Shown here piece by piece: positions 23,552 through 40,603 of a stretch of DNA of 41,526 nucleotides. Numbering within the stretch: the first letter of the stretch is position 1; each line of letters starts with the position of its first letter. The notes under the pieces were generated by a model. It searched no databases, had not been told where the DNA came from, and saw nothing but the letters and a program-made list of their open reading frames with translations. This DNA comes from an uncultured Alphaproteobacteria bacterium. Lineage in GTDB: Bacteria; Pseudomonadota; Alphaproteobacteria; RF32; CAG-239. The stretch covers positions 1 through 41,526 of the forward strand of contig CALXTP010000027.1 of assembly GCA_944391435.1 (NCBI GenBank). Direction: 5' to 3'. A program made the translations under genes and the position numbers.

Positions 23552-24490
23552 TCATTGCAACGCCGGAATATTTAACTGCGCAAAGTTTCCGGGTTTGATT
23601 TTAACCGTTGCGTAGCGCAGATTATCTGTTTCAATCATATATTCTTCACGACCCGTCAGCTGTGCCGCCAGCTTATAAAAATCTCTGCCGTTCAATTCCT
23701 GTTTATACCAGTTCATCAGATAAAAAACACAAGCTTGGCTTTTATCAGTTAAACCGCATCGTGGCCGTCCGTCCGGAACATCCGGATTCGTAACAACCCC
23801 TTCCAAGCCATAATTGGTAGTTTCTGTTGATGCAAAAAACACTTTGCCAATTAGCAACCCGATAACAAGGCAAAGCCCCGCCGCCATAAACATAACTTTT
23901 TTCTTTACATAATTGTCGCTGTCAATAAAGACATCGTCAGCATCATCAATATCTTCGTCTTCATAACCGTAATCCGGAAATTCTTCATCAGAAACAAAAG
24001 TATTCCCGTATTCATCTCGTTCGCGAATCATATTCTGGGCATCGGCAGCTTTAACAATGCTGGTACTTTGCTTCAATTCTTCCCGCGGATCCGTTTCCAA
24101 CACATCACTGTCGGATTCGTTTTCGGCGTTAATCAAAACATCTTCAGTATAGCCGTTATCAGCATTGGCAGCATGTTCAGCCGTAACAAAAGCCGGTTTT
24201 TCCGTTACGCTTTGCGAAAAATTCTGCAATCCCTGATTTTCTACCAAATCGGCCGTCTGTGAAGCTGAAGAAAATTGCGCAAAATCATTTCCGCCGGTTG
24301 TTTGACCGGGAAGAGGGGGCTGAACTTTATTTGGAATTTCTTGAATTCCTGCCGCCGGACGAACCTTAGGGCGTTTTATTTTTCTTAATTTCGGGTGCGG
24401 TGGAATTTGCGCCGATATACCTGTTTGCGAAGTCCCTTGTGAATCGGAAACATTATTGTTTATGAAACTGTCCAAACTTTCATCACTCAT
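23552..24490 (-). CDS. Hypothetical single-pass membrane protein of the secretin-like cluster
   Basis: 312 residues, unknown family. The N-terminal ~195 residues are cytoplasmic in prediction: a Pro/Lys-rich stretch (PPHPKLRKIKRPKVRP), then acidic low-complexity sequence. One membrane helix follows at about 198-219, preceded by KKK. The ~90-residue periplasmic C terminus has two cysteines (RCGLTDKSQACVFYL) that could form a disulfide. This bitopic layout is like inner-membrane partners of secretins, such as PilP- or TcpB-type accessory proteins, but I see no sequence match. It is the last gene of the minus-strand block, 12 bp after the secretin-like gene. Confidence 0.72.
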   Translation of the reverse strand: MSDESLDSFINNNVSDSQGTSQTGISAQIPPHPKLRKIKRPKVRPAAGIQEIPNKVQPPLPGQTTGGNDFAQFSSASQTADLVENQGLQNFSQSVTEKPAFVTAEHAANADNGYTEDVLINAENESDSDVLETDPREELKQSTSIVKAADAQNMIRERDEYGNTFVSDEEFPDYGYEDEDIDDADDVFIDSDNYVKKKVMFMAAGLCLVIGLLIGKVFFASTETTNYGLEGVVTNPDVPDGRPRCGLTDKSQACVFYLMNWYKQELNGRDFYKLAAQLTGREEYMIETDNLRYATVKIKPGNFAQLNIPALQ

Positions 24491-24502
24491 TTTGCCGCCC
24501 CG

Positions 24503-25789
24503 TTAAATTTGATTTTTTATTTTCTCATCTGTTTTCAATAGCCGTACCAGCCTGGGAACAATATAAACAATCGTTTCCGTTCCCTGTGTCGCTTCTCCGA
24601 AAATCTCGCTGGGCAAGCCGATAATCAAAAAGTTTTCGCCAAGCCTGCTGCGTGATTTAAATCTGGTTATTTCACCTTCTGTCGTATCCAACGTGATTTC
24701 AGATAAAATCCGGTTATTTTTTTCTATTCCGGCTTTTGCTAAAATAGATAAAGAATATTCCGTATTGCTTAATTTGCCGCAGCGGCCGACGTCAAAACGT
24801 GAAAACCAACGAGTCGGAACAATAAAGCGCCCTTCTGAGATATCTTGGATTGTTGCATACTTGCTGACAAACTGCCGTAATTTTTCCAGCGATATATCAT
24901 TTGTAACCGTTAAAATGCGCCCGATGACGCCTGTTTGTGCGGTGGCAATGCTGCCGAATTTAAAATCCTTAAGCAAATCATTCCACACCACGCCGCAAGG
25001 TTCTTTGGCAATTACCCGAAAAACGCTTACATCATACATAACCAGCGTCGGATTATCTTCAAATTCGCCAATAAGTTCTTTAATCTTGTCTAGCGTTTCC
25101 AGATTTGTTTCAAACGCAATGGTATAATCCCGCCAATTGGTAATCATATCCGTGATGCCTGCGCCGCGCAGGATATCAAGAAAACCGAGCAAAAGAGTAC
25201 GCGAACTCGGAGCATAAAGCGTAAAACCGGCACGACGGCTTAAGATAAGAGAATTTGTTTTTGCGTCATAGCGATAAAACAAATCTGCCGATCGCGTCAA
25301 CATATCAACAACTTCTTTAAAACTTCCGTTCAAATTTTTGCCGTATAACACGGGATATGGCGCATCCTTGGCAACCAAAGTCATCCCGGCCTCTTCTGTT
25401 AGTTTGAGCAAAGCCTGTTCTGCCGGAATATTGTCAAAAGAAAAGCCGCGTATTTCCAAATCGGGCAACGGATCATCTATGCCGTTCTTTTCTATTTTGA
25501 AAGAAATATTGTTATGCGGCAAAATTTGCACCATTTCCTGCGTTTTCCAGTTGACATTGCAGCGTAAAGGCGTTTCCAAATCCAAATCATTGGCGCGAAA
25601 CGTCGTGCGCAACATATAAGGATCTTCTTGCGGTAATATCATAAAATTATCGGTGGCGCTGCCATCAACAGATGTTCCGGTAATAATTGTTTCGCCGTCT
25701 TTTTGATAAATGTTGCAAGAAACCAAAGCTGCCGCAACGGCCGCTAACAGAAAAAAACGTATATTTTTATAAAAACGGAAACTATTCAT
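24503..25789 (-). CDS. Secretin-like lipoprotein
   Basis: 428 residues from the ATG at 25789; an ATG at 25795 is equally in frame. The signal peptide ends in LVSC, so it is lipidated. A secretin N-domain-like unit occupies about residues 95-180 (GFSFDNIPAEQALLKLTEEA, YRYDAKTNSLILS). A second N-domain-like fold follows (TIAFETNLETLDKIKELIG), and the end is ETIVYIVPRLVRLL, which resembles the closing VTPRIV of secretins. The overall plan is nearest to type IVb pilus secretins of the PilN/TcpC type, which are lipoproteins. The beta-barrel region is short, so it may be a secretin relative that does not form a full pore. It sits with other envelope genes of unknown type. Confidence 0.6.
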   Translation of the reverse strand: MNSFRFYKNIRFFLLAAVAAALVSCNIYQKDGETIITGTSVDGSATDNFMILPQEDPYMLRTTFRANDLDLETPLRCNVNWKTQEMVQILPHNNISFKIEKNGIDDPLPDLEIRGFSFDNIPAEQALLKLTEEAGMTLVAKDAPYPVLYGKNLNGSFKEVVDMLTRSADLFYRYDAKTNSLILSRRAGFTLYAPSSRTLLLGFLDILRGAGITDMITNWRDYTIAFETNLETLDKIKELIGEFEDNPTLVMYDVSVFRVIAKEPCGVVWNDLLKDFKFGSIATAQTGVIGRILTVTNDISLEKLRQFVSKYATIQDISEGRFIVPTRWFSRFDVGRCGKLSNTEYSLSILAKAGIEKNNRILSEITLDTTEGEITRFKSRSRLGENFLIIGLPSEIFGEATQGTETIVYIVPRLVRLLKTDEKIKNQI

Positions 25790-26282
25790 TCTCATCTTCT
25801 TTCTGTTTGACAAGTTTTTCCTGTTCAGCCATAAGCTTGGCCACGACATCATCAATACTTTGCCCGGCTCCTTTGGTAGGATCGTCGGATTGGTCGGTAA
25901 AGCCGCCGAAAGCATCTTTTGCGGCACTCAAATCAGCTTCTTTTTTCGCAGCCATTTCTACCGACGCGTTGCGTTCAAGTTCCTGTCTGTACAGGCTTAA
26001 ATTTTTTTTAAGGGCCTCAATGCCGCCTTTGATTTTCTTCTCCACATAAGGATGAAGTTCTTTATGCTCAATAATGTAATCGCCTGTCTCACATAACTCG
26101 CTCAAAACATCAATAATATACGGATAAAAAGGATAATCCTCAACGGCAATATTACCTTGTCTGATGCAGCGGGCAGCTATTCGCGAAACAGTACGGTCAT
26201 AATAATCACGTATAAGAACGTAATTATCAATATACCATAAAGATTCTTTGGTTACCGTAATATCGTCGCTGTTATCTGCCAT
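25782..26282 (-). CDS. Hypothetical soluble protein of the secretin-like cluster
   Basis: 166 residues from the ATG at 26282; GGAGAG lies just upstream, and a TTG at 26294 is rejected because it overlaps that site. No signal peptide or membrane helix. The N-terminal half is rich in aromatic residues and Ile (WYIDNYVLIRDYYDR), followed by a helical Lys/Glu-rich C-terminal half likely to form a coiled coil. It overlaps the secretin-like gene by 8 bp, so the two are probably translated together. Possibly a cytoplasmic chaperone or adaptor; this is a guess from size and position. Confidence 0.68.
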   Translation of the reverse strand: MADNSDDITVTKESLWYIDNYVLIRDYYDRTVSRIAARCIRQGNIAVEDYPFYPYIIDVLSELCETGDYIIEHKELHPYVEKKIKGGIEALKKNLSLYRQELERNASVEMAAKKEADLSAAKDAFGGFTDQSDDPTKGAGQSIDDVVAKLMAEQEKLVKQKEDENE

Positions 26283-26341
26283 CATTCTCTCCAAAATCTT
26301 ACTCCGAAAAATTAAAGCAAAGAGGCTGTATTGTAAACAAT

Positions 26342-29300
26342 TTAATGCTGGTTATTGTCAGGCTTTTCGTCTGTCGTTCCGTCATCTTCAACATATTCCC
26401 ATTCCCAATCCTCATCGTCAGAGGGGACTTCGTTGCCGTCTTCGTCTACATATTCCCATTCCCAATCTTCATCGGAAGCTTCTCCGGAAGCATCGGCGGA
26501 AGAAGAGGAATTTGTATCGGAAGAAACAGGTGCCGTTGCCCCGGCATTGGTTGAAGGCGGAAACTCGGACGTCGGATTGATATCCGCGTAATCATGCTGC
26601 CCGACATTTTCATCATCGTCATAATCATCTAACTCAATAGGCTGATCCAATGATGAAATATCAATATTATCGGTTGTTAATGCTGCCCGGATTCTGTCCA
26701 GCTCGGCACTGTATCTGCTGGGCTTTTCCTCTGACACAGGTGTTGCCGGAATATCGGCAGGGGCGTCCTGTGTCATTGTGCCTTCGGCCCCATTGTTTGC
26801 TGCTTGTCCTGTTATGTCTACAGAAACATCTCCAATTCCGTCAAGTGCAGGTTCTTCCTCCTGGCGGATATTCTTTTCTGCCGCCGATTCCGCGAGAGCC
26901 GCTGAAGCATCGGCAGACATATTGTCCGCAAACGGTTCATTAACAACAGTTGATATCGGCTCAACATTCGGTGCAGCCGTTTGAGAAAACGGAGTCTCGT
27001 TGTTCTCTTCCGGTACGGTTAAAAATTGTTGCAAGTCATCAAATGTATCCGGTGAATTTTCCCGTATATCCTGTGCTGGCTCAATATCATCAGCCCTCAC
27101 CGGGGATTCGGTCTGATAATCGGAAATTTCTGTCGGCAGAACGTCAGCGGAATCTGCTGTACTCAATTCCGGGCTGTCCGGTATATTTGCAATCGGCTCG
27201 CCTGTATTCCCGCCATTCAAAAAATCATCTAATGACGGCTCGTCTATTTCGTGCTGCTCATCCATATTTTCACTTGCCTTCGGCGACTGCATGGGCGTAT
27301 CATCAAAAATCTCATGACTTTGCTCTTGCATATCTGTCGGAGTACGTTGTACGGCTGAAGTTTCCACGGGAATATCCTGCCCTTGGATATCGTCAAAACT
27401 CAAAGACGGGATTTGGTGGTCATCTTCGCCAGCATCCGGCGCGGATGTTTCGGGCAAGGCGAAATCCAAGTCGTCATCTTCCTGAATATCGTTAAAATCT
27501 TGCAAAACAGGTTCTGTGGTAGGAGAAAGATTCGCGTCCTCTTTTGTGTCATAAATGTGCTGAGGGAGCTCAAAATCCAAATCCTCATCATCGTTTGAAG
27601 CAAAATCTGTAAGATCAGGAGTGTCAGCGTCAGATGTTGCTTTCACAGCATCCTGTATCTCGGGTTGAGAGGGAGCCTCCTCATCTTCAAAATTAAGGGC
27701 GTCCAAAGAATCTAATGATTGCAACAGCTGGCTGTCTTCCTGTTCATCTGTTTCCGGAATATTGGCAAAAGTGTCTGAAACAGGATTATCCGTTGTTGAA
27801 AAGTTTTCGGCAAAAATCTTTTCTTGCTGCGCAACAGCAGAAACGTGCTCTTCTTCCGGCAATGTGTCTAACGGCGGTACATCCAAACGTATATTGTTAA
27901 AATCATCATTATGCTTAAATTCTTGATTGCGGATAACACCATCAAACTGGGGAATCGGAGATTGTGAAACAGTAGCTGCTGTGCCTGTTGCCGTTGCAGG
28001 CGTAACGGCTGGTTCTATCTTCTTTGCAGCGGGAATTTCCATTCCTTCTGCCGGTCTTGATGTCGGTATATTTTCACGCTTTATATCAGACACGGCATTC
28101 GCCGGCTGCTCGGAACCGGTCGGGAAGCCATTGGCTGATGAAACTGCTGTATCTGCATTGCCGTGATGTTTTTTCTTCTTTTTCTTCTTTTTTCTCGGTT
28201 CGCCGGTAAATTGTGCTACTGGTTCAAAATGAAGCATATTGCCTTCCGGGAAGGAAACATCATCTTCACCTTCGGAAACACCGTCATCGTCAGCAAGCCC
28301 CGCTATATGCGAAACGGGAGAATATTCTTCTGCCGAAGGTAATACTTGAGAATACTTATTTGCGGATTCTGTCTGATGTTCTTTTGCATCTTGTTCCGGT
28401 CGGGACGGTTTCGGAGTTGGAGCATTATTGCCGGACAATGTATCCTGCCGTTGGACAGATTCGGAAAAGGTATTTAATAACGGCGATGCATCTATAACAA
28501 TCTTTTTATCATTAACCGTTTGAGCATATTCTTTAAACATATCCTGCATGGCTCGCAATGAAGCATCTAATTCATTCTTTATCTCGTTGCGAAATGTCTG
28601 TAAACGGTTTTCTACATTCAGATAATCTGAGATTTCCGTATTTTTTTTATTATTTGATGTATAAAGCCCTTCCAACAATTTGGTAATAGATGCCTGCGAT
28701 GCAATAATTCTGTTGTTGAGGTCAGATAAATCCGCATCATCGCGATTTCGGGAAGACAAAATGCCTTCCAAAATACGGGCAATGGAAACTTGTGAGGCTA
28801 TAACGGAATCCGTAACGCTGCGCGTTTCTTTTAACACATCAAGCATAGCAGCCCGCGAAGAGCGTATTTCTTCGGCAATGACATCAAAAGCATTTTCTGC
28901 GCCGGAAGAAAGGACAGCTGTCTCGCCGGCAGAAACGGGAACTTGGTTTTGTTTAAAAGCCAATGCCAGCGCTTTGGCCAGAGCTTCGGCGAAAGAAGAA
29001 TCAATCGTCAGGCTGCCCCCGATGACTGCTCCTCCGGCAGCTTGAACCGGAGCCGGCGCATCTATTTTTCCCGCTCCCTCGTCAAAGTCTTCCCTATTGG
29101 CTTTAACAAAAGATATGCCTCGTTCGGTCTTGACTTTTTCAATATGTTCAACCAAAAGACGGCCACCGGGCATTCGCTTAAAAAAATCCGTAATTTCCGG
29201 AGGTAGCGCCAACAATTCGTTATCAAACTCTTCCCTTTTGTTCTTATTAAAAATGTGAACCTGCCTGAAGATATTTAAATAACGTTGTGCAACTAAAATC

Positions 29301-29356
29301 GGCGCTTCTTTGCCGTCATTGTCACTGCCAAACTCTACATCATTTAAATTTTCCAC
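26342..29356 (-). CDS. Large acidic protein with Trp-rich C-terminal repeats
   Basis: 1004 residues, GTG start, no signal peptide or membrane helix. Residues 1-100 look globular. About 105-320 are helical, with a near-duplicate unit (VIASQVSIARILEGI and IIASQASITKLLEGL, about 33 residues apart). A poly-Lys stretch (K8 then HH) is at about 390-400. The remainder is acidic low-complexity sequence of Asp, Glu, Ser, Pro and Thr, ending in two copies of DEDWEWEYV 19 residues apart, close to the C terminus. The family is not recognised. It could be a structural scaffold or a secreted substrate of the neighbouring apparatus; its acidic, C-terminally repeated end leaves both open. Confidence 0.75.
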   Translation of the reverse strand: MENLNDVEFGSDNDGKEAPILVAQRYLNIFRQVHIFNKNKREEFDNELLALPPEITDFFKRMPGGRLLVEHIEKVKTERGISFVKANREDFDEGAGKIDAPAPVQAAGGAVIGGSLTIDSSFAEALAKALALAFKQNQVPVSAGETAVLSSGAENAFDVIAEEIRSSRAAMLDVLKETRSVTDSVIASQVSIARILEGILSSRNRDDADLSDLNNRIIASQASITKLLEGLYTSNNKKNTEISDYLNVENRLQTFRNEIKNELDASLRAMQDMFKEYAQTVNDKKIVIDASPLLNTFSESVQRQDTLSGNNAPTPKPSRPEQDAKEHQTESANKYSQVLPSAEEYSPVSHIAGLADDDGVSEGEDDVSFPEGNMLHFEPVAQFTGEPRKKKKKKKKHHGNADTAVSSANGFPTGSEQPANAVSDIKRENIPTSRPAEGMEIPAAKKIEPAVTPATATGTAATVSQSPIPQFDGVIRNQEFKHNDDFNNIRLDVPPLDTLPEEEHVSAVAQQEKIFAENFSTTDNPVSDTFANIPETDEQEDSQLLQSLDSLDALNFEDEEAPSQPEIQDAVKATSDADTPDLTDFASNDDEDLDFELPQHIYDTKEDANLSPTTEPVLQDFNDIQEDDDLDFALPETSAPDAGEDDHQIPSLSFDDIQGQDIPVETSAVQRTPTDMQEQSHEIFDDTPMQSPKASENMDEQHEIDEPSLDDFLNGGNTGEPIANIPDSPELSTADSADVLPTEISDYQTESPVRADDIEPAQDIRENSPDTFDDLQQFLTVPEENNETPFSQTAAPNVEPISTVVNEPFADNMSADASAALAESAAEKNIRQEEEPALDGIGDVSVDITGQAANNGAEGTMTQDAPADIPATPVSEEKPSRYSAELDRIRAALTTDNIDISSLDQPIELDDYDDDENVGQHDYADINPTSEFPPSTNAGATAPVSSDTNSSSSADASGEASDEDWEWEYVDEDGNEVPSDDEDWEWEYVEDDGTTDEKPDNNQH
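26391..26467 (-). repeat. DWEWEYV tandem repeat
   Basis: Two identical 20-base copies at 26391-26410 and 26448-26467, 57 bases apart (19 codons), encoding DWEWEYV plus flanking acidic residues. Identity at DNA level suggests a recent duplication or gene conversion. Confidence 0.8.
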
Positions 29357-29401: not shown

Positions 29402-30379
29402 TTACAAAGCAATATCCACAACCTTATGAATTTTTTTGAAATCATCGTTGCTGAAATAAATGCGTTCTTCTGGATTCCACATCAAGCCGTAAAGCTGTCC
29501 TGTTTCATCTTCCCTGACGCTGACAACGAAAGCTTTTTGTTCTGTTGTGTAATAAAGGGCAATGTCGCCGACGCTTGCAACTTCGCTCGGTGCAACAAAC
29601 ATAATGGCTCTGTTGGACAAGATGGAGCCGAGTCTTCTTGTGCACAGGCTGACGCCATAAACGTCCCTCTTATCACAAAGATTCGCCGGCTTGACGGCTT
29701 CTTTGGATGAAGAATTCCTGTCAATAACGATAGAGCCGTCTGCGCCCGAAGCGCCGAATACCGGAACTTTTAACGTGTCTAAATCAATATATCCGCTGCC
29801 ATTATGGTCGTTAACGGGTCTGCTGATGGCCGCAATCTTGTATTTCGTGTCATTATGGGCAATAATTTCTTCCAAAGCACCTTTTTCATCAAGGCGCTTG
29901 ATTTCAGCCTTCAAAGCATCAACATCCATGCCCAGGGCATTGGCAATATTTTTGTATTCTTTGTCGGAAACTTCGCGTTGTCCCATTTCTATGCGGTGGT
30001 ATACAGAAAGTGTCATATCCGCATTTTCGGCAACTTCAATCAAAGTCAACGACTTTTCGTTTCTGATATATCGCAGAGCGGCACCCAAAACTTTTAAGCC
30101 GCTGTTGCGGTTAATTTCCTGCCGTCTTTCCTGCTCTTTTTTCCAAGACATGACAACTTCATGCTGTGAATTTTGTTCATTAACATACAAGTCTTGCAAA
30201 GAACAATCCAATATTTCGGCAACCAAGATAAGCTGTTCTTGGTTAAGTCTCCTGTATCCTTTTTCTATTTTGGATATGGCAGAAAGGCTGATGCCTAGTC
30301 TGTCGGCCAGGTCTTGCATAGAAACGCCGCGCATTTTACGGTTAATCCTGATTTGGTTCGGAAATACAATTTCTTCCAT
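29402..30379 (-). CDS. Double-HTH (XRE) regulator with S24-like C-terminal domain
   Basis: 325 residues from the ATG at 30379, with GAGG upstream. Two XRE-type helix-turn-helix domains are seen, at about 8-64 (SMQDLADRLGISLSAISKIE) and 98-156 (TLIEVAENADMTLSVYHRIE). From about 200 the sequence resembles the LexA/S24 fold: VPVFGASGADGS, DVYGVSLC, VGDIALYY, GLMWNPEERIYF and a closing HKVVDIAL. The Ser of the usual GDSM motif is replaced by a CTRR segment, so self-cleavage is unlikely. It lies between the VirB6-like array and the acidic-protein cluster and may control either. Confidence 0.85.
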   Translation of the reverse strand: MEEIVFPNQIRINRKMRGVSMQDLADRLGISLSAISKIEKGYRRLNQEQLILVAEILDCSLQDLYVNEQNSQHEVVMSWKKEQERRQEINRNSGLKVLGAALRYIRNEKSLTLIEVAENADMTLSVYHRIEMGQREVSDKEYKNIANALGMDVDALKAEIKRLDEKGALEEIIAHNDTKYKIAAISRPVNDHNGSGYIDLDTLKVPVFGASGADGSIVIDRNSSSKEAVKPANLCDKRDVYGVSLCTRRLGSILSNRAIMFVAPSEVASVGDIALYYTTEQKAFVVSVREDETGQLYGLMWNPEERIYFSNDDFKKIHKVVDIAL

Positions 30380-30416
30380 AGCTATATACCTCATACAAAA
30401 ATAATTTTACATTATA

Positions 30417-30617: not shown

Positions 30618-33600
30618 TTATAAAATTTTTCCAATAAGGCGTCCGCTGCTGTCATAGGCCATGCCATTGCTGATACGGCCGATAGAAGTGCCGTTGCTGT
30701 TAAGTATATTTCCGCTGGCATCGGCTTGGCCGATAATATTTCCGTTAAAATCGGCAACATCCAAAGTGTCAACTGTATGGCTGGTGGACGTATGAAGTCG
30801 GTTGGCGCCTTTGTGCCGCATTTTAACCAATACGTCGTCTTTAATGTAGTCTTTCATATTTTTTCCGTTGACCTTTTCTCTGGTTTGGGCATCAAAACCT
30901 TGGAACAAATCGCCTTTGTAGCCGTCTTCTCCTGCGTGTGCCGGATCCAAATCGCGGGCAACGGTACCGTTTTTCTCTATAATTTGGTTGCCGTCAATCC
31001 TGTCTGAAATATGATCATGCCCTCGCTGTGCATATTCGGAAAAGCTTGCCGTTGTTTTTTCTCCGGCTGTTTTTGCCGAACCGTCGCGGATATCGCCCTC
31101 TGTTTTTCTTCCTGTTTCGTTAATGTTAAGCAGCCCGTTGCTTCTGTATCGCATATAAGTGCCGCTATATTTTTCATTGCTTTCCGCATAGCTGTTTCCA
31201 TAAGAAGTGGAAGATGATCCGTCAATATTTTTCTGGCGTGTCCGTGTAGCATCTATATGTTTTGTTTTTGTTTTAAGTACATTGCCTTTTTTATCAAGAT
31301 ATTCCGTAATCACTTCATTGTTTTTATATATAGTACGTTCGGTCTTCTGTCTGAAAAGTCCTGCTTTTCTCTCCGTCTGATAAGTTATTTCGCCGGTTGC
31401 GGCATCCGTATGGCTGGACAATTTTTGCGAACCCCAAAAACTGTGTAGAGTCGTCTTCCTGTCGCCCGTGGCAGATGTAGGGGCAAAAGCAGCATCCAGC
31501 TTATCTTGCATATCCTGTCGTTTCTGGTTGTAACCGCTCAGTTTGGCGCTGGTATCGTGCTGAATTTCCACCCCGTTACGGCTATAAGTCTTTTTAACTG
31601 TCGGTCCGAAAAATCCGAAACGTTTTGTTTCTCTTTCATAGTACTGCTGCCCGTTGGCATCCTTTTTGGCGGTATAAGAAACAAAAGCCCCGGCTTTCCA
31701 GGTGTAAGAGCCGTCTCCGTTATCATGCCCGGCACGTCTTATCATGCTGTTTAAGGCTGCAATGTTAAGCTTGCGCCCAAGGCGTTTTCTGCCGGTTGTT
31801 GCTGCCGTTTCAATGCTGTTTTTATCTCTTTGGACAAGGTAATCCGTAAAAACTTGTCCGGTTGCTGAATCTATATCTAAACTAAGGGTGGTCAGTTTTC
31901 CTGTATTATCCATCTGTTCCATTCGTAGCGAAAAAGGATGGCTGGGGTCAAATTCCACATTGCGAGATGAAAAATAAGCGCCGACATCTTGTCCCGTCCT
32001 GGCCTTGTTAATTTCTATAGCCAACTGTGTCATAATGTCTTTAAGGTTTTCCGGGTCTTTGGCCAGGTCGGAATTCATAAGAGTTTCAAGTGCCCCTTTG
32101 TTGATAAAGCCGTTTTTATCCATCAAATGGTCTTTAACAAAACCGTGTTTGAATTTAACCTGCGTTCGTATTGTTTTTCCCGAAGCTGTTTTTTCCCTTT
32201 TTATGGTGGCATATTTATCGGCCAGCATGGTATGGGTGCGCCCCGTAATAGATTTAAAATCGCGATGCAAAACATCTGTCCCGTCCGCGTTCCTGTCCAA
32301 TGAAAAAGTATAGCCGAGCATTCGCAGAGTCTTTCCGCCTGTGCTGTTGGTTTTGCCAAAGAGTTTGACCCCGGCTTTGGCGGTTTGACGAACACCAGCC
32401 TGCATACGCCGTTTGGTAACACGTCCGGCTCTTTTCGCCGCCGTCCCGGCTGCACCGACGGCCCAATCTGCCGCTTTCCTCGTTTTGGAATCAACGGTCT
32501 GTTTGACAGCAGCCCCGATTTTTTGTGCCGCGCTAATTCCCAATGACCCTTTGGAAAAATTGTCGGCCAAATCAACAATAACCGGCATATATGCCCAGCC
32601 GATAACCAGAATAAAAATAATTTTGAGCATATTGGGTCCGTAAAAGGCCAATCCTTTATTCGGGTTTTCAAAAAATACTTTCGGGTCGCTCGTATTTTCC
32701 ATTGCCCCTAATAGTAAGTTATTGATATACCCAAGGATACACATAATCAGGATAGCCATAAACATAAAGACGAATAAGGAATGTAAAATCCAAGAGAAAA
32801 CTTTGGATAAATAGCTGCGCGTTCCTTGAAAAGCGTATCCGCAGACGGCAAAGGGCAGAAAAGCCATGGCTATGCCGAGTTGCAATACGGCATCGGCCAT
32901 AACCCAAGGGTAGGCAACCATAAAAAACACGCCAGCCAGGTAAAGCAGTATGCCGTCAATGATGTAAATTGGATTCGGAATAACGTAAAAAAGGCGGTCA
33001 GGCCCGTTGCCGCGGCATAATCCCCAGCGACCAAACTCAAACAAAAGATTGATTTTTCGTTCAATATCCTCAACGGCGCAAACAATAGACGTCCCGACGC
33101 TCATGGGGAGTCCGCCGTTGGTACCCGAACCGGCACTGCCGCTGTAACCGATAATGCCGTCGGCGTTGGCACAGGTCGTATTACCGCTTTTTACAAAAGA
33201 CAACCCCGTATCAAAAATAGGAGAAAGCGTCAGGTTCAAGATATTGTAATAATCTTTGGCGACAATAATATAAATGGCAATACCGACAAACGTTTTGGTA
33301 AAAATGTCATTAAGCAGTGCGTTGGGATCTTTAGAGCCCATGGTTGCAATATTGCGCAATATAATAAGCGCCAGAGACACGGCCAAAAAGATAATAATGA
33401 GCTGGCCGAGTTCGGAAGAAAAAGCCTCATAAGATTTTGCAGCCACATAGCTTCCCGCATTAAAAAGAACCTTAAACATTTGGCAAAACATACAATCAAC
33501 CTTGTCTACAGTCGGTGTAACGCAGTTGGTTTCGGTATCTATGCCGAGCGTTTTTGCCAACAGAGCCCCGGCCTTGTCTTCTATGTCGGCGTATGATGGT

Positions 33601-33674
33601 TTTGTTATCAATAAAACAAACAGCAAAACCAGTGCCGACAGTTTATTAGATATATATGCCCGAATCATATTCAT
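30618..33674 (-). CDS. VirB6-like protein with 550-residue C-terminal extension
   Basis: 1018 residues from the ATG at 33674 (AAGGTG upstream; a GTG at 33683 is also possible). Signal peptide, then the periplasmic VDCMFCQMF motif. A TrbL/VirB6-type polytopic core follows to about residue 390, with LGQLIIIFLAVSLALIILRN and the long central loop. After a basic Ala/Lys/Arg-rich linker comes a ~550-residue hydrophilic extension containing many short beta-like units (YSRNGVEI, LDKKGNVLKTKTK). It ends with NGMAYDSSGRLIGKIL, preceded by GNIIGQADASGNIL. Extended VirB6 proteins are typical of the rickettsial rvh system. It is the last of the array. Confidence 0.85.
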   Translation of the reverse strand: MNMIRAYISNKLSALVLLFVLLITKPSYADIEDKAGALLAKTLGIDTETNCVTPTVDKVDCMFCQMFKVLFNAGSYVAAKSYEAFSSELGQLIIIFLAVSLALIILRNIATMGSKDPNALLNDIFTKTFVGIAIYIIVAKDYYNILNLTLSPIFDTGLSFVKSGNTTCANADGIIGYSGSAGSGTNGGLPMSVGTSIVCAVEDIERKINLLFEFGRWGLCRGNGPDRLFYVIPNPIYIIDGILLYLAGVFFMVAYPWVMADAVLQLGIAMAFLPFAVCGYAFQGTRSYLSKVFSWILHSLFVFMFMAILIMCILGYINNLLLGAMENTSDPKVFFENPNKGLAFYGPNMLKIIFILVIGWAYMPVIVDLADNFSKGSLGISAAQKIGAAVKQTVDSKTRKAADWAVGAAGTAAKRAGRVTKRRMQAGVRQTAKAGVKLFGKTNSTGGKTLRMLGYTFSLDRNADGTDVLHRDFKSITGRTHTMLADKYATIKREKTASGKTIRTQVKFKHGFVKDHLMDKNGFINKGALETLMNSDLAKDPENLKDIMTQLAIEINKARTGQDVGAYFSSRNVEFDPSHPFSLRMEQMDNTGKLTTLSLDIDSATGQVFTDYLVQRDKNSIETAATTGRKRLGRKLNIAALNSMIRRAGHDNGDGSYTWKAGAFVSYTAKKDANGQQYYERETKRFGFFGPTVKKTYSRNGVEIQHDTSAKLSGYNQKRQDMQDKLDAAFAPTSATGDRKTTLHSFWGSQKLSSHTDAATGEITYQTERKAGLFRQKTERTIYKNNEVITEYLDKKGNVLKTKTKHIDATRTRQKNIDGSSSTSYGNSYAESNEKYSGTYMRYRSNGLLNINETGRKTEGDIRDGSAKTAGEKTTASFSEYAQRGHDHISDRIDGNQIIEKNGTVARDLDPAHAGEDGYKGDLFQGFDAQTREKVNGKNMKDYIKDDVLVKMRHKGANRLHTSTSHTVDTLDVADFNGNIIGQADASGNILNSNGTSIGRISNGMAYDSSGRLIGKIL

Positions 33675-33685
33675 AACCGTCACCT

Positions 33686-34612
33686 TTACTTCTTTGTTTT
33701 AGCCATTTGTTTACCGTAACGTGCCAAGGTCCGTCCAAAGAAAGAATTACTTTTTTCGCCGCGAGCCTGGAGTCGTTTACCCGTTTGATGTTTAATCACA
33801 TCGTTGCCGTATTTGCCTACTTTGCCAATAGTTCTTTTGTTAACAGCAGCAACAATCTGACTTATCCTGTCGCTTAAAGGCTGGCCGGCCATCGATCCGT
33901 CAAAGAAATGTTTGCAAAATTCATCTGCCATCAGCGGAATCATACGCATCGCTACCAGATAAGAAACCAAAACTTTGAGGAATGTCAGTGTAAAAACACC
34001 AAGTTTGTCACGAATGATGTCAGATTTGTCTTCGTCAAAAATAGCCTTAATATCGGTATCTTGGCCAAAGGATGCGTTAATAATGGTATCAACGATTTCT
34101 GCTCCGATAAGGATTCCCAGCGGCAAAAAGATAAACAAGCCGGTATAATAAGCGATTCCCTCAACAACGGGCTGGAGTTTGTCTCTTGTCCAGGCAAAGG
34201 GCCACAATGCCAGCGCCAAAGGCAGCAAGACAATGCATAATGACAGGTTAAACGCCACATCAAACATATAAAAAGAGGCGATAACGGAAATAAAGAACCC
34301 CAATACGTATAAAATACAGCCGCTGATAAAAATATCAAATGCGATAAGTTTAATTTCTATAATAACTTTAATACGGAAAGCAGCTTCTCCGTAAATGGAG
34401 TTGCATATAAGCATATCGCCGATTTTCATCATCTGATTGGTAGCTTTGTTAATTTGGTCGGCCATTTTTTTCACGCCGTTTATCAGATTATTCATTGCAG
34501 TAATTTCCTGTCCCGCAATGGATATTTCGGGAGAAGCCCCCTGCGCCATTACCCCCGGTGCGGTGAACAGCAGAGCAAGGAAAAGAAAAATATATCGCAG
34601 AAACTTCTTCAT
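33686..34612 (-). CDS. VirB6-like C-terminal half (split unit, part 2)
   Basis: 308 residues with its own signal peptide (MKKFLRYIFLFLALLFTAPG) and an AAGGAGGA ribosome site. The mature sequence begins in what corresponds to the periplasmic loop of the intact paralogues and then has GDMLICNSIYGEAAF, parallel to GEAMICNSIRGTFN in the 36446-38116 paralogue. Membrane helices and a basic C-terminal tail (KRLQARGEKSNSFFGRTLAR) follow. It lacks the N-terminal helices and CxxC motif, which are supplied by the gene 12 bp upstream. Together the two make one full VirB6-like unit of about 475 residues. Confidence 0.82.
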   Translation of the reverse strand: MKKFLRYIFLFLALLFTAPGVMAQGASPEISIAGQEITAMNNLINGVKKMADQINKATNQMMKIGDMLICNSIYGEAAFRIKVIIEIKLIAFDIFISGCILYVLGFFISVIASFYMFDVAFNLSLCIVLLPLALALWPFAWTRDKLQPVVEGIAYYTGLFIFLPLGILIGAEIVDTIINASFGQDTDIKAIFDEDKSDIIRDKLGVFTLTFLKVLVSYLVAMRMIPLMADEFCKHFFDGSMAGQPLSDRISQIVAAVNKRTIGKVGKYGNDVIKHQTGKRLQARGEKSNSFFGRTLARYGKQMAKTKK

Positions 34613-34624
34613 GCTTTTTCCTCC

Positions 34625-35128
34625 TTAAAAGCTGACCGCCCCGGCAAGTGTTTCGCCGATATCAAAACCGATGCTGAGCATGGGATTGACGATATATTGA
34701 ACCAAAACATCTATGCCGGCGGTAACAAGGGCATAAACTAACGCCACTTTAAAACAAAACGTAAGCAGCCCGTCAATAATTTTGGCCGGATCCTGCGTTG
34801 CAAAAGAGCCGAGCGATTTTAAGAAATATAGTGCTATCCAAATGGCGGAGCCGAGCGTTAAAATAAGTTTGGCAGCTTCCACGGTTGTGCCATACAGGGT
34901 GCCGGCAATCGTTGTAAGTGATATCATAAGATTTTCAATAATTTCGCAAGACCAACAACCTGCTTTTTCATATTCTTCATCAATAATTTCGGATGAACAG
35001 TATGTGAGGTAATCATCATCGCAAAACGCCGTTTCAGCAAGCAGCAAAGCGCAGCAGAAAACACTGGCCGTTACCACAAATTTGTGCTGGCAAATAAACT
35101 GCAGGAATATGTTAATAATCATCGTCAT
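34625..35128 (-). CDS. VirB6-like N-terminal half (split unit, part 1)
   Basis: 167 residues. Signal peptide ending around ETAFC, then the conserved periplasmic Cys motif in AGCWSCEIIENL. The first membrane segments of the family follow (LTLGSAIWIALYFLKSLGSF with ATQDPA, then FKVALVYALVTAG). It stops after MLSIGFDIGETLAGAVSF, exactly where the paralogues enter the large periplasmic loop. No frameshift remnant joins it to the next gene, which has its own signal peptide. The ATG overlaps the preceding stop by 4 bp. A two-component VirB6 is the simplest reading. Confidence 0.8.
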   Translation of the reverse strand: MTMIINIFLQFICQHKFVVTASVFCCALLLAETAFCDDDYLTYCSSEIIDEEYEKAGCWSCEIIENLMISLTTIAGTLYGTTVEAAKLILTLGSAIWIALYFLKSLGSFATQDPAKIIDGLLTFCFKVALVYALVTAGIDVLVQYIVNPMLSIGFDIGETLAGAVSF

Positions 35129-36429
35129 TCGTTATACCCCGCTAATGAATTGATTGCCGAAGATGTTTTGCTTTTTGCCTGTTTGATGGAGTCCAATGCT
35201 TCCCGGGATTTTTCATATTTTTCCATAGTGGTTGTAATGGTGGAAGTCGCTCCGCCTGAAACGCCGGCCAAAATAGCCGCACCGGCACGTTTTGCCGTGT
35301 TCATGACAAATTGTGTAACCTGTTTTTGAAATTCCAGGCCTCGTCCGCCGCCGATAAACTTGTCCGCCATAACAACCCCAAGTCCCGGAATATTGATAAG
35401 CAGGAAAGAAATCAGCAGTAATGACAGCATAACCGGTCCCGGATTGGACAGATTCTTGTTTTCATAGGCACCGCTTCCTTCAAAATTGCCCAAAGTTGTT
35501 TCCAAAGCGCCGATGGCAATACAAATAAGTATTCCTATAAACAACATAATACCCGATGAATTCAAGAACATCAGAAAACCGTGTTTGCTCCATTTTCGCG
35601 TATAATTAAAAGGAACCCCCATAATCAGCAACGGAAACAATAAGGCAGCAAAATTCATCCTGAACAGGGCATCAACCAAAAAGAATATAAAGCCAAATTT
35701 GGCACACGTAAATATCAGAAGCATGGTTAAGCCGACAAGGATAGAATCAAGTTCAAGCAGGGCAATAAGCTCAATGCCGAGTCGGATGCCGGCATTGAGC
35801 CTGTCATTAATCTGGCAGGCAAGGCAGCTTGCCATCGGTTGGATGGAACTTTGCAAAGAATCCGCATTAAGTTCTTGTACTTCACAGCTTGTATATGAGG
35901 TATTAAAAGTAACCGTTCCGAAAATGCCAAGATTAACCGATCCGCCGGATTTTATATTGCCGAGGATGGCGGAGCCCAATTCCAAAATGGCGTTATAAAT
36001 CGGGATAACAAACGTATTAAGCGTCCAGGATATCATTCCTCCGTCGCTGACGGCCCAGGCACAAAAAGCACATAAGAATAATTTATGCCCGATTTCGGTC
36101 CAGACTTCGCCCAGATTTTCTTCTTTAAACGACGGGAGCACTTTCAGAAGTTTAAAAGCCATCCAGATAGAAAACCCGAGCATGATGATAACGGCGCCGC
36201 CATCGGCAACTTTGGCTGACCCTGCTTTGAATAAATTGTCAATCTGCCCCAACACAATGTCAATGATTTTAGCTTGCCAGCAAGCCGCCTGTTCTTCATA
36301 ATTGGTATCTTTGCCGGAAGACAGGTCATCATCATCTTTGCATGCGGCAAGAAGCATGATAATGGCAATGCCGAACAAGCGTTTCAGCATCTTCACGGTA
36401 AATATTTTATATATCAGCTCCCGTATCAT
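35125..36429 (-). CDS. VirB6-like predicted lipoprotein
   Basis: 434 residues. The N-terminal signal has a lipobox, LAAC, with Cys30 followed by KDDDD, so it may be lipidated. The core follows the VirB6-like pattern: IIMLGFSIWMAFKLLKVLPSF near the N terminus, a large loop, and several later helices such as LDSILVGLTMLLIFTCAKFGF. The second Cys of the family CxxC is replaced (ACWQA), and a CLAC pair appears in the loop (MASCLACQINDR). GAGG precedes the ATG. It lies in the middle of the array, coupled to the split unit by a 4-bp overlap. Confidence 0.82.
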   Translation of the reverse strand: MIRELIYKIFTVKMLKRLFGIAIIMLLAACKDDDDLSSGKDTNYEEQAACWQAKIIDIVLGQIDNLFKAGSAKVADGGAVIIMLGFSIWMAFKLLKVLPSFKEENLGEVWTEIGHKLFLCAFCAWAVSDGGMISWTLNTFVIPIYNAILELGSAILGNIKSGGSVNLGIFGTVTFNTSYTSCEVQELNADSLQSSIQPMASCLACQINDRLNAGIRLGIELIALLELDSILVGLTMLLIFTCAKFGFIFFLVDALFRMNFAALLFPLLIMGVPFNYTRKWSKHGFLMFLNSSGIMLFIGILICIAIGALETTLGNFEGSGAYENKNLSNPGPVMLSLLLISFLLINIPGLGVVMADKFIGGGRGLEFQKQVTQFVMNTAKRAGAAILAGVSGGATSTITTTMEKYEKSREALDSIKQAKSKTSSAINSLAGYNE

Positions 36430-36445: not shown

Positions 36446-38116
36446 TTAAATCGGCTTGCCGTCTGCGTCATACTGTTGTTCATCACTGCTGCCATCAGTA
36501 TGAGTAACTTTTTCAGAAGCAACCTGACCATTTCCATGAAAAGTTTGCTCATCGCTACTACCATCGGTATGAGTAATTTTTTTGGTCTCAAGATTACCGT
36601 TTTCATCAAAAGATTGGTCTTCAATATCGCCGTTTTGCCGAACCGTCTGGACATTTCTTAATCTGTGGTTTGCATCAAAATTCCGCGTGATAGTGCTGCC
36701 GTCATCGCCCTGTACGACATCCTGCAGCGGTCCGGCGGCAAGCGGAGTCTGTGCTTTATGCCAAAAAGCCCTGTATCCCTGTCTTCCGGTACCCGTCAGG
36801 GTTCCGCGGATTTCCTCAACTTTGTTGCCGCCCCAGGCATAGGCTTTGTCCAGGCGAGTCATTCTGGCTGCGGCTGCACCCGTGCGCTTGCTGGCCGTAA
36901 GCCCCCAGTTTCCGGTAGCTTTGGCAATGCGTTTTCCAGCACCGGAAACAGGCTTCATAACCGCAGCGCCCACCTGGCTGCCGGCAGAAGTTGGAGTGCC
37001 GCTGTCGGCAATCTTATCGGCCAGTTTGCCGATATGGGCGGCCAGTTGCACAATGACGCAGAAGCAGACGATGGTAAACAGCAAAGAGCCGTTGCTCCAC
37101 AATTCCTTGGCAATTTCTTTAACCTGATTATCATCAATATTTGCGCTAAGATTAGTCAAAAAGCTGTTTAGGGCAGGGCTTTGCGAACCGCTTTCATATG
37201 AGCCCATACATAAATCAACCAGCTGCATGGAAAGCCCCATCACGATTCCCAGCATAACAAAGCTGGCAAATACATTCAAGAAGATACTCCAGATGTTTTT
37301 GGAATAGGTAGAAGTCAAACCGGAAATTGCGGCAGCCACGCCAAAAGGCAGGAGAATTGCCCCGAATGTCAGGCGAATAAGAATATCCACAATATAAAAA
37401 GATATACCGACCAAAAGCACCCACCCGAAAACAAACAGGATAAAACCATAAAACAACATCAGCCAATACCATTTAAAGATATTAAAGGTACCACGTATGG
37501 AATTGCATATCATGGCCTCGCCAATGGCAATTGTCCGGTACAATTGGTCATTAAACTGTTTAACCGCTTCGTTAACCATCTCAAAAATAGCAGCATATCC
37601 GGTACCGCTGGGCGTAGCCAGCCGTGCCCCCTCAACGGATAAGGTTGAGCCGATATTAAGCCCCGCTTGCAAAATCGGGCTGATGATTTTATTGATAAAA
37701 AAGGAGCTGCTTTCATTTTCCTGTAACAAAAGCACGATAACCGTTGTTTTGAACATCAAAATTAAAATGCCCTTTTTATCTCCGGTTAAAAAGTCGGCAG
37801 CATTTTGTTTGCCGAAAGAGCCGACATTTTTAAGCACGGCCATGGCAATATAAATGGCGGAAGCCAAAACGACTAACGGGATAAGGTCAAGGTGGAAAGT
37901 ATCCCATGATTTTGTTGCCGCGCTGGTTGCTGCTTCCGTGATAATCTTAAACAGGCGGCATAACAGGCAGTTGTTATGTGTGCTGAGACCGTCATTAAGA
38001 TAATCCTGAATAGTCGGACATTCTTTGCAGGCCGTCAAAAACAAGGTAAAGAATACGGCAAGCAGCATTTTCCGCTTTTCAAACATTTCCTTTAATGTCA
38101 TTCCCACCCTATACAT
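36446..38116 (-). CDS. VirB6-like predicted lipoprotein with YD-like C-terminal repeats
   Basis: 556 residues, start at 38116 with GGAG seven bases upstream. Lipobox LTAC with Cys30, then NNCLLCRLFKII, the array's CxxC motif. VirB6-type helices include LVVLASAIYIAMAVLKNVGSF and the GEAMICNSIRG segment. After the last helix and a basic linker, the C-terminal ~100 residues are four degenerate repeats of about 23 residues with the pattern DGS...F/Y-D-x-NG, like YD/RHS repeats. This domain is hydrophilic and has no parallel in the 455-residue paralogue upstream. Position: second in the array. Confidence 0.84.
   Translation of the reverse strand: MYRVGMTLKEMFEKRKMLLAVFFTLFLTACKECPTIQDYLNDGLSTHNNCLLCRLFKIITEAATSAATKSWDTFHLDLIPLVVLASAIYIAMAVLKNVGSFGKQNAADFLTGDKKGILILMFKTTVIVLLLQENESSSFFINKIISPILQAGLNIGSTLSVEGARLATPSGTGYAAIFEMVNEAVKQFNDQLYRTIAIGEAMICNSIRGTFNIFKWYWLMLFYGFILFVFGWVLLVGISFYIVDILIRLTFGAILLPFGVAAAISGLTSTYSKNIWSIFLNVFASFVMLGIVMGLSMQLVDLCMGSYESGSQSPALNSFLTNLSANIDDNQVKEIAKELWSNGSLLFTIVCFCVIVQLAAHIGKLADKIADSGTPTSAGSQVGAAVMKPVSGAGKRIAKATGNWGLTASKRTGAAAARMTRLDKAYAWGGNKVEEIRGTLTGTGRQGYRAFWHKAQTPLAAGPLQDVVQGDDGSTITRNFDANHRLRNVQTVRQNGDIEDQSFDENGNLETKKITHTDGSSDEQTFHGNGQVASEKVTHTDGSSDEQQYDADGKPI
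36476..36574 (-). repeat. THTDGSSDEQ repeats in VirB6-like C terminus
   Basis: Two copies encoding THTDGSSDEQ at 36476-36505 and 36545-36574, 69 bases apart. They differ at five codons out of ten and every difference is synonymous, so the peptide is conserved while the DNA has drifted. More degenerate copies lie upstream in the same gene. Confidence 0.8.
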
Positions 38117-38137: not shown

Positions 38138-39496
38138 TTAAATACGCAAAGCCCGGCGGAGTTTGCTGACGGTTTTACCGACCCTGCTGTTTTGTATAGC
38201 CTGTCCCACAGGGCTTTGGCGGATATTTTGCCAGGTTTGTCTCCGGCTGTCTCTGAAGTCTTCTTTAGCGGTTTGAATAGCCGCCCCTGCAAATTTTTTG
38301 TTTTCTCTCAAGCCTTTTTTAATCGGCGCCGACGCAAACTGATGCGCCAGAGCACCGCTTTGTTTACCCAGCTTGCCGATGGAAGATGTGCTGGAAACCT
38401 TATCCGCAAGTTGTTCAAGTTCCATAAACAGTTTGAATGCAACCATGCATGCAATTGTTGTCAACAGGAAAGAAGAGACATCCAGATTTTCCACCAAAGC
38501 TGAAGCGTCAGCCTCTGTAAATTGTTTGCCTGCTTGAATGTTGTGTTCGGCGATGAGTTCATCAGAACCGCCCGCCGCTTCCATAATCATTTCCATGGTA
38601 AAGGTAAGCAGAACGCCCATCATGACAAAATTGAAAAAGACGTTGACAAACAGATTCCAGTTTTTCTTAGTATATTTTGAAGTCAATTTGGAAACGCCGC
38701 AAGCGATGGCCATTGGCAACAACATGCATCCCACTGCGAGGCGAAACAAAACGTCCAGCAAATAAAAGGAAACACCGATAAGGATAAACCAGCCGAATAC
38801 ATATAAAACGGCGCCAAAGAAAATGAGTGACCAATACCAGTCAAAAATATCCTCCGGAAGAAAAGCCAGGCACAAGAACAGCCGACCGAGCGCAACAATC
38901 TGATAAACATTATCATTAAATTCGCGCACCTTGTCAATCACGGCCTGAAATAAGGTTCGCACGTTGCTGACATCGCCAAATCCGCTTACGCCAAGCGTCC
39001 CGCCGGCCGATGAAATTGTTCCGCCTACGCTGAGTCCCGCACTGATAACCGGTCCGATAATATAAGAATACAAAAAACTCTGATTGCCCAGCAGCCAGAT
39101 AACCATGGCAACCTTGACGCATAGCGGAATAATGCCGGTCTTTTCGTTGGATAGATAAGCCGCCGGATCCTGTTGGGAAAAGGATGCAATATTTTTTAGC
39201 GTGTAAACGGCAATATAAATTGCGGCGCCGATGGCAACAACACCTTGCAAAGGTGTGGCAAAAGCGTTCCAGGAAAGGACAACGACATTGGCGCAGGCAT
39301 CCATTACCACATCATAAATGCCGCATAGCAGGCAGTGGTCAGAGGTTTGCCCGCCGCCGGCACCTCCGGTGCCTTCTTGTATAAACTCGGTCAGTGTCGG
39401 ACACATAGGGTCATCGGCCCGCGAAACGGAAGCCGTGCAGACAAAATAAAAAAATGAGCCGATTAAATATTTAAGAGACGTTAGAATCTTTGTCAT
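38138..39496 (-). CDS. VirB6-like inner-membrane protein
   Basis: 452 residues from the ATG at 39496, with GAGGTG upstream (a GTG at 39505 is less likely). Signal peptide ending near SVSRA, then DHCLLCGIYDVV with the periplasmic CxxC. Core helices include VVAIGAAIYIAVYTLKNIASF with SQQDPA, then DIFDWYWSLIFFGAVLYVFG and LLDVLFRLAVGCMLLPMAIA. The C terminus is a basic Lys/Arg-rich tail. This is the shortest intact member and a good reference for the array. VirB6/TrbL proteins form the inner-membrane channel of type IV secretion systems. First VirB6-like gene in the array; it overlaps the preceding small gene by 26 bp. Confidence 0.86.
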   Translation of the reverse strand: MTKILTSLKYLIGSFFYFVCTASVSRADDPMCPTLTEFIQEGTGGAGGGQTSDHCLLCGIYDVVMDACANVVVLSWNAFATPLQGVVAIGAAIYIAVYTLKNIASFSQQDPAAYLSNEKTGIIPLCVKVAMVIWLLGNQSFLYSYIIGPVISAGLSVGGTISSAGGTLGVSGFGDVSNVRTLFQAVIDKVREFNDNVYQIVALGRLFLCLAFLPEDIFDWYWSLIFFGAVLYVFGWFILIGVSFYLLDVLFRLAVGCMLLPMAIACGVSKLTSKYTKKNWNLFVNVFFNFVMMGVLLTFTMEMIMEAAGGSDELIAEHNIQAGKQFTEADASALVENLDVSSFLLTTIACMVAFKLFMELEQLADKVSSTSSIGKLGKQSGALAHQFASAPIKKGLRENKKFAGAAIQTAKEDFRDSRRQTWQNIRQSPVGQAIQNSRVGKTVSKLRRALRI

Positions 39497-39692
39497 TGTC
39501 GTCACCTCGTCTCTTAATCAGCGGTTTGGAAAAAGGAGTTCCGAGAAAGGCTGCTGCTGCCAATAGCATAAAAACACATAGTCCTAAGGCAATATAAAGC
39601 AGGGTTTTGTGCGCAAAAAAGCCGATAACATCGCTGTAAGCAATGAAATAAAGCCCAATAAATACCACAATCATACCCGCAACAGACTTCAT
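39471..39692 (-). CDS. Small two-helix membrane protein
   Basis: 73 residues with two predicted membrane helices (MIVVFIGLYFIAYSDVIGFF and LLYIALGLCVFMLLAAAAFL) and a short charged tail rich in Asp, Asn and Lys. GAGG precedes the ATG. It begins the VirB6-like array and overlaps the next gene. The size and two-helix form recall VirB3, which often lies upstream of VirB4 and VirB6, but no VirB3 sequence motif is evident, so this is only a suggestion. Confidence 0.7.
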   Translation of the reverse strand: MKSVAGMIVVFIGLYFIAYSDVIGFFAHKTLLYIALGLCVFMLLAAAAFLGTPFSKPLIKRRGDDNDKDSNVS

Positions 39693-39763: not shown

Positions 39764-40603
39764 TTAAATTTTTCCGTTATTGATAAACTTAACGGCGTAA
39801 TTAAGTACTTTTTCATTATGAAGAGTCTGAAAAGTCGTACCTTCCACAGAAATTTCCCCTTTTTTTCTTTGTGATTGCTGCGGAACCGGAAATTTGCACC
39901 ATTTGAGCAGATTCGCGGCTATTTGAGACGCTTTGGATACGGAAAAAATCTTCAGCGTGTTGAAGTGCCTTGGAATGCTCGGAGTCTTTTTCATGCTCTT
40001 TTCGGTCATTTCCTCCAGCATCGGCCCGCCCAATAAGCTAAAAAGCTTAAATCTTGCCAATATGTCACATAAAAGGCTGCCCCGAACGGCAGGGTTAATC
40101 TCAACAATATTGCGGATTCGCATTTTTTCTTGAAAAGTCTGCATATCTGGCGGCAGATTTAACAGTTGTCGCAAAACCAGATTCCCGGCGCCTTTTGTAA
40201 CAAATGAAACATCAGTGATATCTTCCATGTGATTAAGAAAAAACAACAGCTGGTAAGCTGAAGCCAGTGAGCTCCGGAATAAGGAAGGATAATTGATGGC
40301 TGCCACGGTTGAGTGTGTCAGTACAAGCTTGCGCCAGAGTCGTTTAAAAATATTTTTGCTGTCGCCATAACCATGCAACAAAACAACCAGACTACCTTGC
40401 TGTTTTGTTATTTCGTAACAGTCTATATAGCGTATAAATGCTTTCTGGCATTCTTCAAAAGTTCCGCTTGCGCGGCGTATATCCCAGGAATCAAGGAGTC
40501 GATAGGTCTTTTTGCCGCAATGCCTCTGGATTCGCCATTTTTGATAAAAAAAGACATCTTCCCAAAAAAACGAACCGCCGAATGTAAAAAAATCAAATTT
40601 CAT
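39764..40603 (-). CDS. Alpha/beta-hydrolase-fold protein lacking the nucleophile Ser
   Basis: 279 residues, no signal peptide. The alpha/beta-hydrolase opening SLVVLLHGYGDSKNIFKRLW gives the HG oxyanion loop. The nucleophile elbow, normally G-x-S-x-G, reads TKGAG at residues 136-140, so the catalytic Ser is Gly138 (codon GGC at 40192-40190). The elbow is otherwise intact in context: DVSFV before, NLVLRQLL after. It is probably a non-catalytic relative or uses another chemistry. AAGAGAG precedes the ATG. It lies 8 bp after the small lipoprotein gene and upstream of the VirB6-like array. Confidence 0.72.
   Translation of the reverse strand: MKFDFFTFGGSFFWEDVFFYQKWRIQRHCGKKTYRLLDSWDIRRASGTFEECQKAFIRYIDCYEITKQQGSLVVLLHGYGDSKNIFKRLWRKLVLTHSTVAAINYPSLFRSSLASAYQLLFFLNHMEDITDVSFVTKGAGNLVLRQLLNLPPDMQTFQEKMRIRNIVEINPAVRGSLLCDILARFKLFSLLGGPMLEEMTEKSMKKTPSIPRHFNTLKIFSVSKASQIAANLLKWCKFPVPQQSQRKKGEISVEGTTFQTLHNEKVLNYAVKFINNGKI

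Follow-up and report, generated by a model that had tools for sequence, protein, structure and literature searches.

Four tightly packed genes on the minus strand of a 41,526 nt stretch of DNA (the window), from an uncultured alphaproteobacterium of the CAG-239 lineage (contig CALXTP010000027.1 of assembly GCA_944391435.1), are on balance best explained as the secretin module of a chromosomal, VirB-type type IV secretion system (T4SS) that is genetically coupled to a type IVb pilus. The genes encode a giant acidic protein, a small acidic protein, a secretin lipoprotein and a bitopic membrane protein. They are a conserved module that is linked to VirB6-like genes and co-inherited with both a VirB T4SS and a type IVb pilus. 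The secretin would be the working partner of the T4SS rather than of the pilus: the adjacency of the VirB6-like genes, and the separate PilN secretin that the pilus possesses, tip the balance that way. Since the module is inherited together with T4SS genes, and type IV secretion machines are not, to our knowledge, users of secretin pores, it is probably part of a hybrid machine of an unusual kind.

A conserved four-gene module

The genome to which the window belongs, as contig C27, measures 1.5 Mb and is 92% complete. Its four open reading frames (ORFs) were confirmed where the original prediction had placed them:

23552..24490, minus strand: bitopic protein, 312 amino acids (aa), with a disordered cytoplasmic N-terminal part, a transmembrane (TM) segment at 199-217 and a conserved periplasmic domain; ends in IPALQ
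24503..25789, minus strand: secretin lipoprotein, 428 aa, with a signal peptide, lipobox Cys25, N0 domain (about 112-192), N1-like domain (197-245) and secretin domain (248-419)
25782..26294, minus strand: small acidic protein, probably helical, cytoplasmic; the start is probably the ATG at 26282, giving MADN
26342..29356, minus strand: giant acidic protein, 1004 aa, net charge -144, no TM segment

The bitopic and secretin genes lie 12 bases apart, the secretin and small genes overlap by 8 bases, and 47 bases separate the small gene from the giant one. That these genes form one system, as originally predicted, is supported by their order in relatives. Of 155 loci found, the best 80 (the named loci) were compared by a six-frame profile search; counts are given over those with enough flank to be testable. 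The relatives that carry them are gut or rumen Alphaproteobacteria known from metagenome-assembled genomes, including Azospirillum sp. CAG:239. The order giant-small-secretin-bitopic is kept at every named locus with enough flank: the small gene stands ahead of the secretin gene in 80 of 80 loci and has the giant gene ahead of it in 77 of 77, and the bitopic gene comes after the secretin gene in 78 of 78. A helix-turn-helix (HTH) gene is conserved together with the four genes in 45 of 49 loci, and likewise in families f23, f40 and f91 of the class. The full order HTH-giant-small-secretin-bitopic is seen again in f23 and f40. It also occurs in f91, but there the gene at the giant position was matched by profile at a single locus (L187). 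Such constancy, together with the recurrence in other families, is more than chance would give, and the four-gene grouping is one conserved module. Searched for across whole genomes, the lipoprotein turned up in 35 of 57 relatives, among them 31 of the 33 genomes of its own family, with the source genome counted. The VirB6-like array that had been noticed beside the cluster adjoins it in 39 of 45 testable loci, as well as in f23, f40 and f91, so that the association of the two holds in relatives.

Scans of the four proteins against Pfam, NCBIfam and PHROGs gave no usable match, and sequence searches of solved structures with the secretin, the secretin alignment, the bitopic domain and the small protein returned chance matches only.

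The lipoprotein is a trimmed secretin

The lipoprotein starts at the ATG at 25789, within a longer GTG-initiated ORF that begins at 25927. Its lipobox (ALVSC) provides Cys25, which is common to at least 90% of 25 homologues; the protein at locus L055 lacks the cysteine. The secretin family was reached only through profile-profile and structure comparison. PF00263 is listed for none of 25 lipoprotein members at E up to 10, although the HMMER filters drop most weak matches, and one member matches Secretin_N weakly, at 0.015.

An AlphaFold2 model of the lipoprotein (mean confidence, pLDDT, 77.9) shows an N0 domain, an N1-like domain and a beta-rich C domain. Foldseek places PilQ first among its matches (3e-10) and BfpB, a type IVb pilus secretin, second. 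In VIA-align comparisons, N0 scores a Z of about 10 against DotD, EscC and PilQ, and the likeness to DotD is restricted to this fold. The C domain (residues 248-417) scores a Z of about 7 against secretin barrels of type II and type III secretion systems, RcpA and pIV. At Z 7.5, over 113 residues at 4.2 Å, the C-domain match is modest taken alone, but the structures matching that domain are nearly all secretins.

Profile comparison points the same way. Against a four-row profile of larger secretins, the lipoprotein profile aligns by hhalign with 99.6% probability (E 3e-24) over 337 columns. The four larger secretins had been found with the lipoprotein's own profile, so this comparison is not blind; their Pfam match is independent of it, since the three that were scanned all carry PF00263 at 1e-17 to 1e-20. 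The four-row profile in turn matches the pilus PilN of the window lineage at 99.7%, and the likeness to type IVb pilus secretins that was originally proposed is thereby upheld. A direct profile link to the PilN of the same genome was tried and is weak (3% and 16%); the connection came through the intermediate larger secretins. The alignment to full secretins has long gaps inside the secretin domain, which makes the lipoprotein a trimmed secretin. Predicted structure and profile-profile comparison thus both show what had been called secretin-like to be a true secretin of reduced size, with N0, N1-like and secretin domains, and it would form a ring and pore in the outer membrane.

Linkage to the VirB operon and the pilus locus

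No pilin, PilQ-type ATPase, PilR or PilO gene lies next to the secretin in the window cluster; these are on contig C9, with a secretin of their own. The original observation that pilin and ATPase are missing is therefore correct for the cluster and does not extend to the genome, where other contigs carry a type IVb pilus locus and four ATPase genes of the T2SSE type. T4SS genes are likewise spread over several contigs: VirB11 and a beta-flower-repeat VirB10 on C40, an adjacent VirB8 pair and VirB9 on C17, a third VirB8 on C41, and VirB4 on C9, where the pilus locus with its PilN-like secretin follows about 2 kb away. The genome has one VirB4 (by PF03135 match) and one strong VirB9.

Elsewhere these parts are contiguous. 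In G054, a genome of another family, a single contig carries, in this order and over about 61 kb, the secretin cluster, the VirB6-like array, VirB11, a VirB10-like gene, VirB9, two VirB8, VirB4 and the pilus locus. The same parts lie within about 55 kb in G029 and G027. Three further genomes (G022, G299 and G026) join the cluster with the T4SS, and G021 joins the T4SS with the pilus. A convergent VirB11 gene stands beside the cluster in 15 of 65 testable named loci. The cluster had first been taken for a candidate separate apparatus. The source genome also has VirB4, VirB8, VirB9, VirB10, VirB11 and a pilus locus, and in several relatives these are contiguous with the cluster; the secretin/VirB6 wing of a T4SS-pilus super-locus is therefore the better description.

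A related arrangement is found with the larger secretins. In G151 (L188:3013-20000) and G052 (L190:3-8651), a run of VirB8, VirB9 and secretin genes is followed by a GspE-type ATPase, and L188 also has a T2SSF protein. This is a T4SS-pilus hybrid operon in which a Pfam-confirmed larger secretin sits mid-operon, directly beside VirB8-VirB9.

Co-occurrence was surveyed in 385 genomes of the class. The secretin profile matches 31 of these: 25 strongly, in 11 families and with genomes mostly of 0.9-2.4 Mb, and six weakly. The weak matches are larger secretins and were for that reason set aside before counting. VirB8 is present in 22 of the 25 secretin-positive genomes, compared with 58 of the 360 others. 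These counts, like those for VirB9 and PilR below, represent related genomes and not independent events. A VirB9 subtype scoring above 430 bits occurs in 20 of the 385 genomes, every one of them secretin-positive. The next VirB9 tier (224-257 bits) comprises nine genomes, none with a strong secretin match; four of them (G254, G151, G065 and G052) have weak matches, to larger secretins.

Which machine does the secretin serve?

Several observations weigh against assigning the secretin to the T4SS. VirB9 and VirB10 normally build the outer-membrane pore of a T4SS, and both are already present here. VirB11 is not adjacent to the cluster in 50 of the 65 testable named loci, and the fetched neighbourhoods in f51, f69, f70, f74 and part of f91 contain no match to the VirB6-array profiles. 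Five secretin genomes (G122, G101, G198, G185 and G390) have no VirB9-subtype match. Two of these, G101 (78% complete) and G198 (80% complete), match neither VirB8 nor VirB9, and G122, which is 98% complete, has no match to VirB8 or PilR and matches the C-terminal region of VirB9 only, weakly. Clean tiers are also favoured by the origin of the VirB9 and PilR profiles, both of which derive from secretin-positive genomes. Lastly, PilR is found in 23 of the 25 secretin-positive genomes, and the local PilR subtype, present in 20 of 332 genomes, is accompanied by the secretin in 19 of the 20. PilR thus co-occurs with the secretin just as well as the VirB genes do, and co-occurrence cannot tell which machine uses it.

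These PilR counts speak for a module that gives the type IVb pilus a second secretin, for example for another fibre, retraction or uptake, with the T4SS merely a neighbouring locus. The kinship to type IVb pilus secretins fits this explanation, as does the position of the pilus locus after the T4SS in G054, G029, G027, G021 and the source genome. However, the pilus locus already has its PilN-like secretin, and where linkage exists the module adjoins VirB6 genes and not pilin genes. All 12 genomes of the more distant PilR tier lack the module, and so does G071, which is listed as 100% complete and carries the local PilR subtype. A second pilus module is unlikely, although it is the strongest of the competing explanations.

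Less probable still is a free-standing trans-envelope secretin machine with a substrate of its own, which would use the VirB6-like proteins and not the VirB ATPases. It would account for the trio or quartet of genes that stands without a nearby array match in f51, f69, f70 and f74, and for the module in G122. The cluster, however, contains no motor, VirB8 and the VirB9 subtype follow the secretin closely (22 of 25 and 20 of 20 genomes, as given above), and several genomes show the cluster directly contiguous with the VirB operon. The gene order in G122 (L183) is HTH-226 aa-small-secretin-bitopic.

A purely structural ring, in which the trimmed secretin domain forms no pore and reinforces the outer-membrane complex like the N0 domains of DotD or Xanthomonas VirB7, would suit the N0 fold match to DotD and the Xanthomonas core complex and the long gaps in the secretin domain, but is very improbable, since all the domains are retained in order and solved secretin barrels still align with the C domain.

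A hybrid nanomachine can be tentatively envisaged for the secretin module of a T4SS, and is held to be possible but doubtful in this detailed form: a VirB T4SS with several extended VirB6 proteins would work through, or with, a genuine secretin ring supplied by the dedicated four-gene module, sharing its locus with a type IVb pilus. On the favoured explanation, which is broader and more likely than this detailed form, the secretin would be the outer-membrane ring and pore, and the VirB6-like proteins encoded in the same run may form the inner-membrane/periplasmic conduit that it serves. VirB4, VirB11 and the VirB8, VirB9 and VirB10 proteins would be the motor and core. By analogy with GspC and PilP elsewhere, the bitopic protein may reach from the inner membrane towards the N0 ring of the secretin or the peptidoglycan. 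The small and giant proteins might make up a cytoplasmic platform, and the acidic tail of the latter, with its repeated aromatic motifs, may recruit or position the machine or its substrates.

The partner proteins

The bitopic protein has one TM segment and the small and giant proteins have none, in keeping with their original description. Two cysteines are invariant in the periplasmic domain of the bitopic protein, which is modelled confidently (pLDDT 89) as a small alpha/beta fold without a firm relative. Several LysM domains resemble it weakly in topology, at Z 2.6-3.8. A LysM assignment, suggested by this topology, has no backing from profiles: the hhalign probability is 0.3%, and none of 24 members has a Pfam LysM match.

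The small protein has its conserved core within the first half. The giant protein consists of a conserved N-terminal segment of about 75 residues, kept across f1, f23, f40 and f91, followed by a long, variable acidic middle and C-terminal tandem DEDWEWEYV motifs. An acidic-aromatic motif of the W[EQ][WY][EQ][YW] type is present in 68 of 116 matches to the giant profile, some of which are fragments, and in one other ORF of the scanned loci. The tandem repeat looks like a short docking motif.

Neighbouring genes in the window

The conserved HTH gene and the VirB6-like array occupy the DNA beyond the giant gene:

29402..30394, minus strand: putative regulator with two HTH domains (HTH_3, 9.6e-26, two stretches)
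30618..33683, minus strand: extended VirB6/TrbL-like protein, 1021 aa, with a beta-flower-like C-terminus and about 8 hydrophobic segments (PF04610, 27.8 and 25.5 bits in two scans; cut-off 25.9)
33686..34612, minus strand: polytopic VirB6-array member, 308 aa, 6 hydrophobic segments (PF04610 weak, 13.4 bits; syntenic)
34625..35128, minus strand: VirB6-array membrane protein, 167 aa (synteny, hydrophobic segments)
35125..36429, minus strand: polytopic VirB6-array member, 434 aa (synteny, hydrophobic segments)
36446..38116, minus strand: polytopic VirB6-array member, 556 aa, with weak RHS/MORN-like repeats near the end (synteny)
38138..39505, minus strand: VirB6/TrbL-like protein, 455 aa (PF04610, 26.8 and 25.3 bits in two scans; cut-off 25.9)
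39471..39692, minus strand: small membrane protein, 73 aa, two hydrophobic segments (syntenic in the family)
39764..40603, minus strand: conserved protein, 279 aa, at the array head (synteny)
40612..41046, minus strand: small putative lipoprotein, 144 aa, at the array head (N-terminal sequence, synteny)

Beta-flower, MORN and RHS-like repeats (PF21785, PF21784, PF12396) are a recurring feature of the T4SS proteins (L039:10600-18058 and L045:3-5975), among them a VirB10 of 1462 aa and its neighbour. In the VirB6 array of the window they are found as faint traces, at 30618-33683 and 36446-38116. On the other side of the cluster, a 224 aa ORF with hydrophobic segments (22715-23389) has no counterpart at that position in L041 and L042, which are from the same genus.

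Comparison with known systems

T4SSs are taught as using VirB7-9-10 pores, and the isolated N0 domains of DotD and Xanthomonas VirB7 are the sole hint of a link to secretins. If the hybrid machine is real, its T4SS would have a secretin channel in the outer membrane, either in addition to the usual pore or in its place. Across many Alphaproteobacteria with small genomes, a conserved secretin module accompanies VirB6 arrays and a VirB operon, which makes the T4SS-secretin link testable; the module also defines four protein families that lack annotation. The module appears to be undescribed. Literature searches found no paper on RF32/CAG-239 secretion systems, nor on a secretin with VirB6, Rickettsiales and type IV pili; among the papers listed by broader searches, no title or abstract opening describes such a module, and the word “secretin” does not occur (term count 0) in the available text of a large 2025 T4SS review. 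The suggestion of an undescribed apparatus thus stands for the module itself, but not for the machine, of whose larger, known type the module is a wing.

The closest relatives in domain make-up are the type IVb pilus secretins of the PilN (R64), BfpB and TcpC kind, which are likewise lipoproteins with N0, N1-like and secretin domains. The window secretin is about 100 aa shorter than the PilN of its own genome and is linked to VirB6 genes, whereas the pilus locus has that PilN for itself.

Among T4SSs, DotD of the Legionella Dot/Icm system and VirB7 of Xanthomonas are described as lipoproteins with an N0 domain (PMC2951367, PMC3093366). The window lipoprotein shares with them a T4SS-tied N0 domain (Z about 10 over 81 residues for DotD, 7.3 for the Xanthomonas core complex); they have N0 without a secretin barrel, whereas the window protein adds N1-like and secretin domains. 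TraK of F-type systems is described in PMC7555446 as secretin-like and counted as a VirB9 homologue. It thus offers a precedent for a proposed secretin-like role inside a T4SS, but the window lineage has a separate VirB9 besides its secretin.

The rvh T4SS of the Rickettsiales has among its hallmarks (PMC11077975) duplicated VirB4, VirB8 and several VirB6 proteins, and no VirB5 analogue. The two systems are alike in being VirB-like, with several VirB6-like genes and two adjacent VirB8 genes, in Alphaproteobacteria with small genomes. Filing the present system as an rvh T4SS was nevertheless dropped because neither VirB4 nor VirB9 is duplicated in the source genome: at 92% completeness it has one VirB4 and one strong VirB9, and it differs further in the secretin module and the type IVb pilus that are attached to it.

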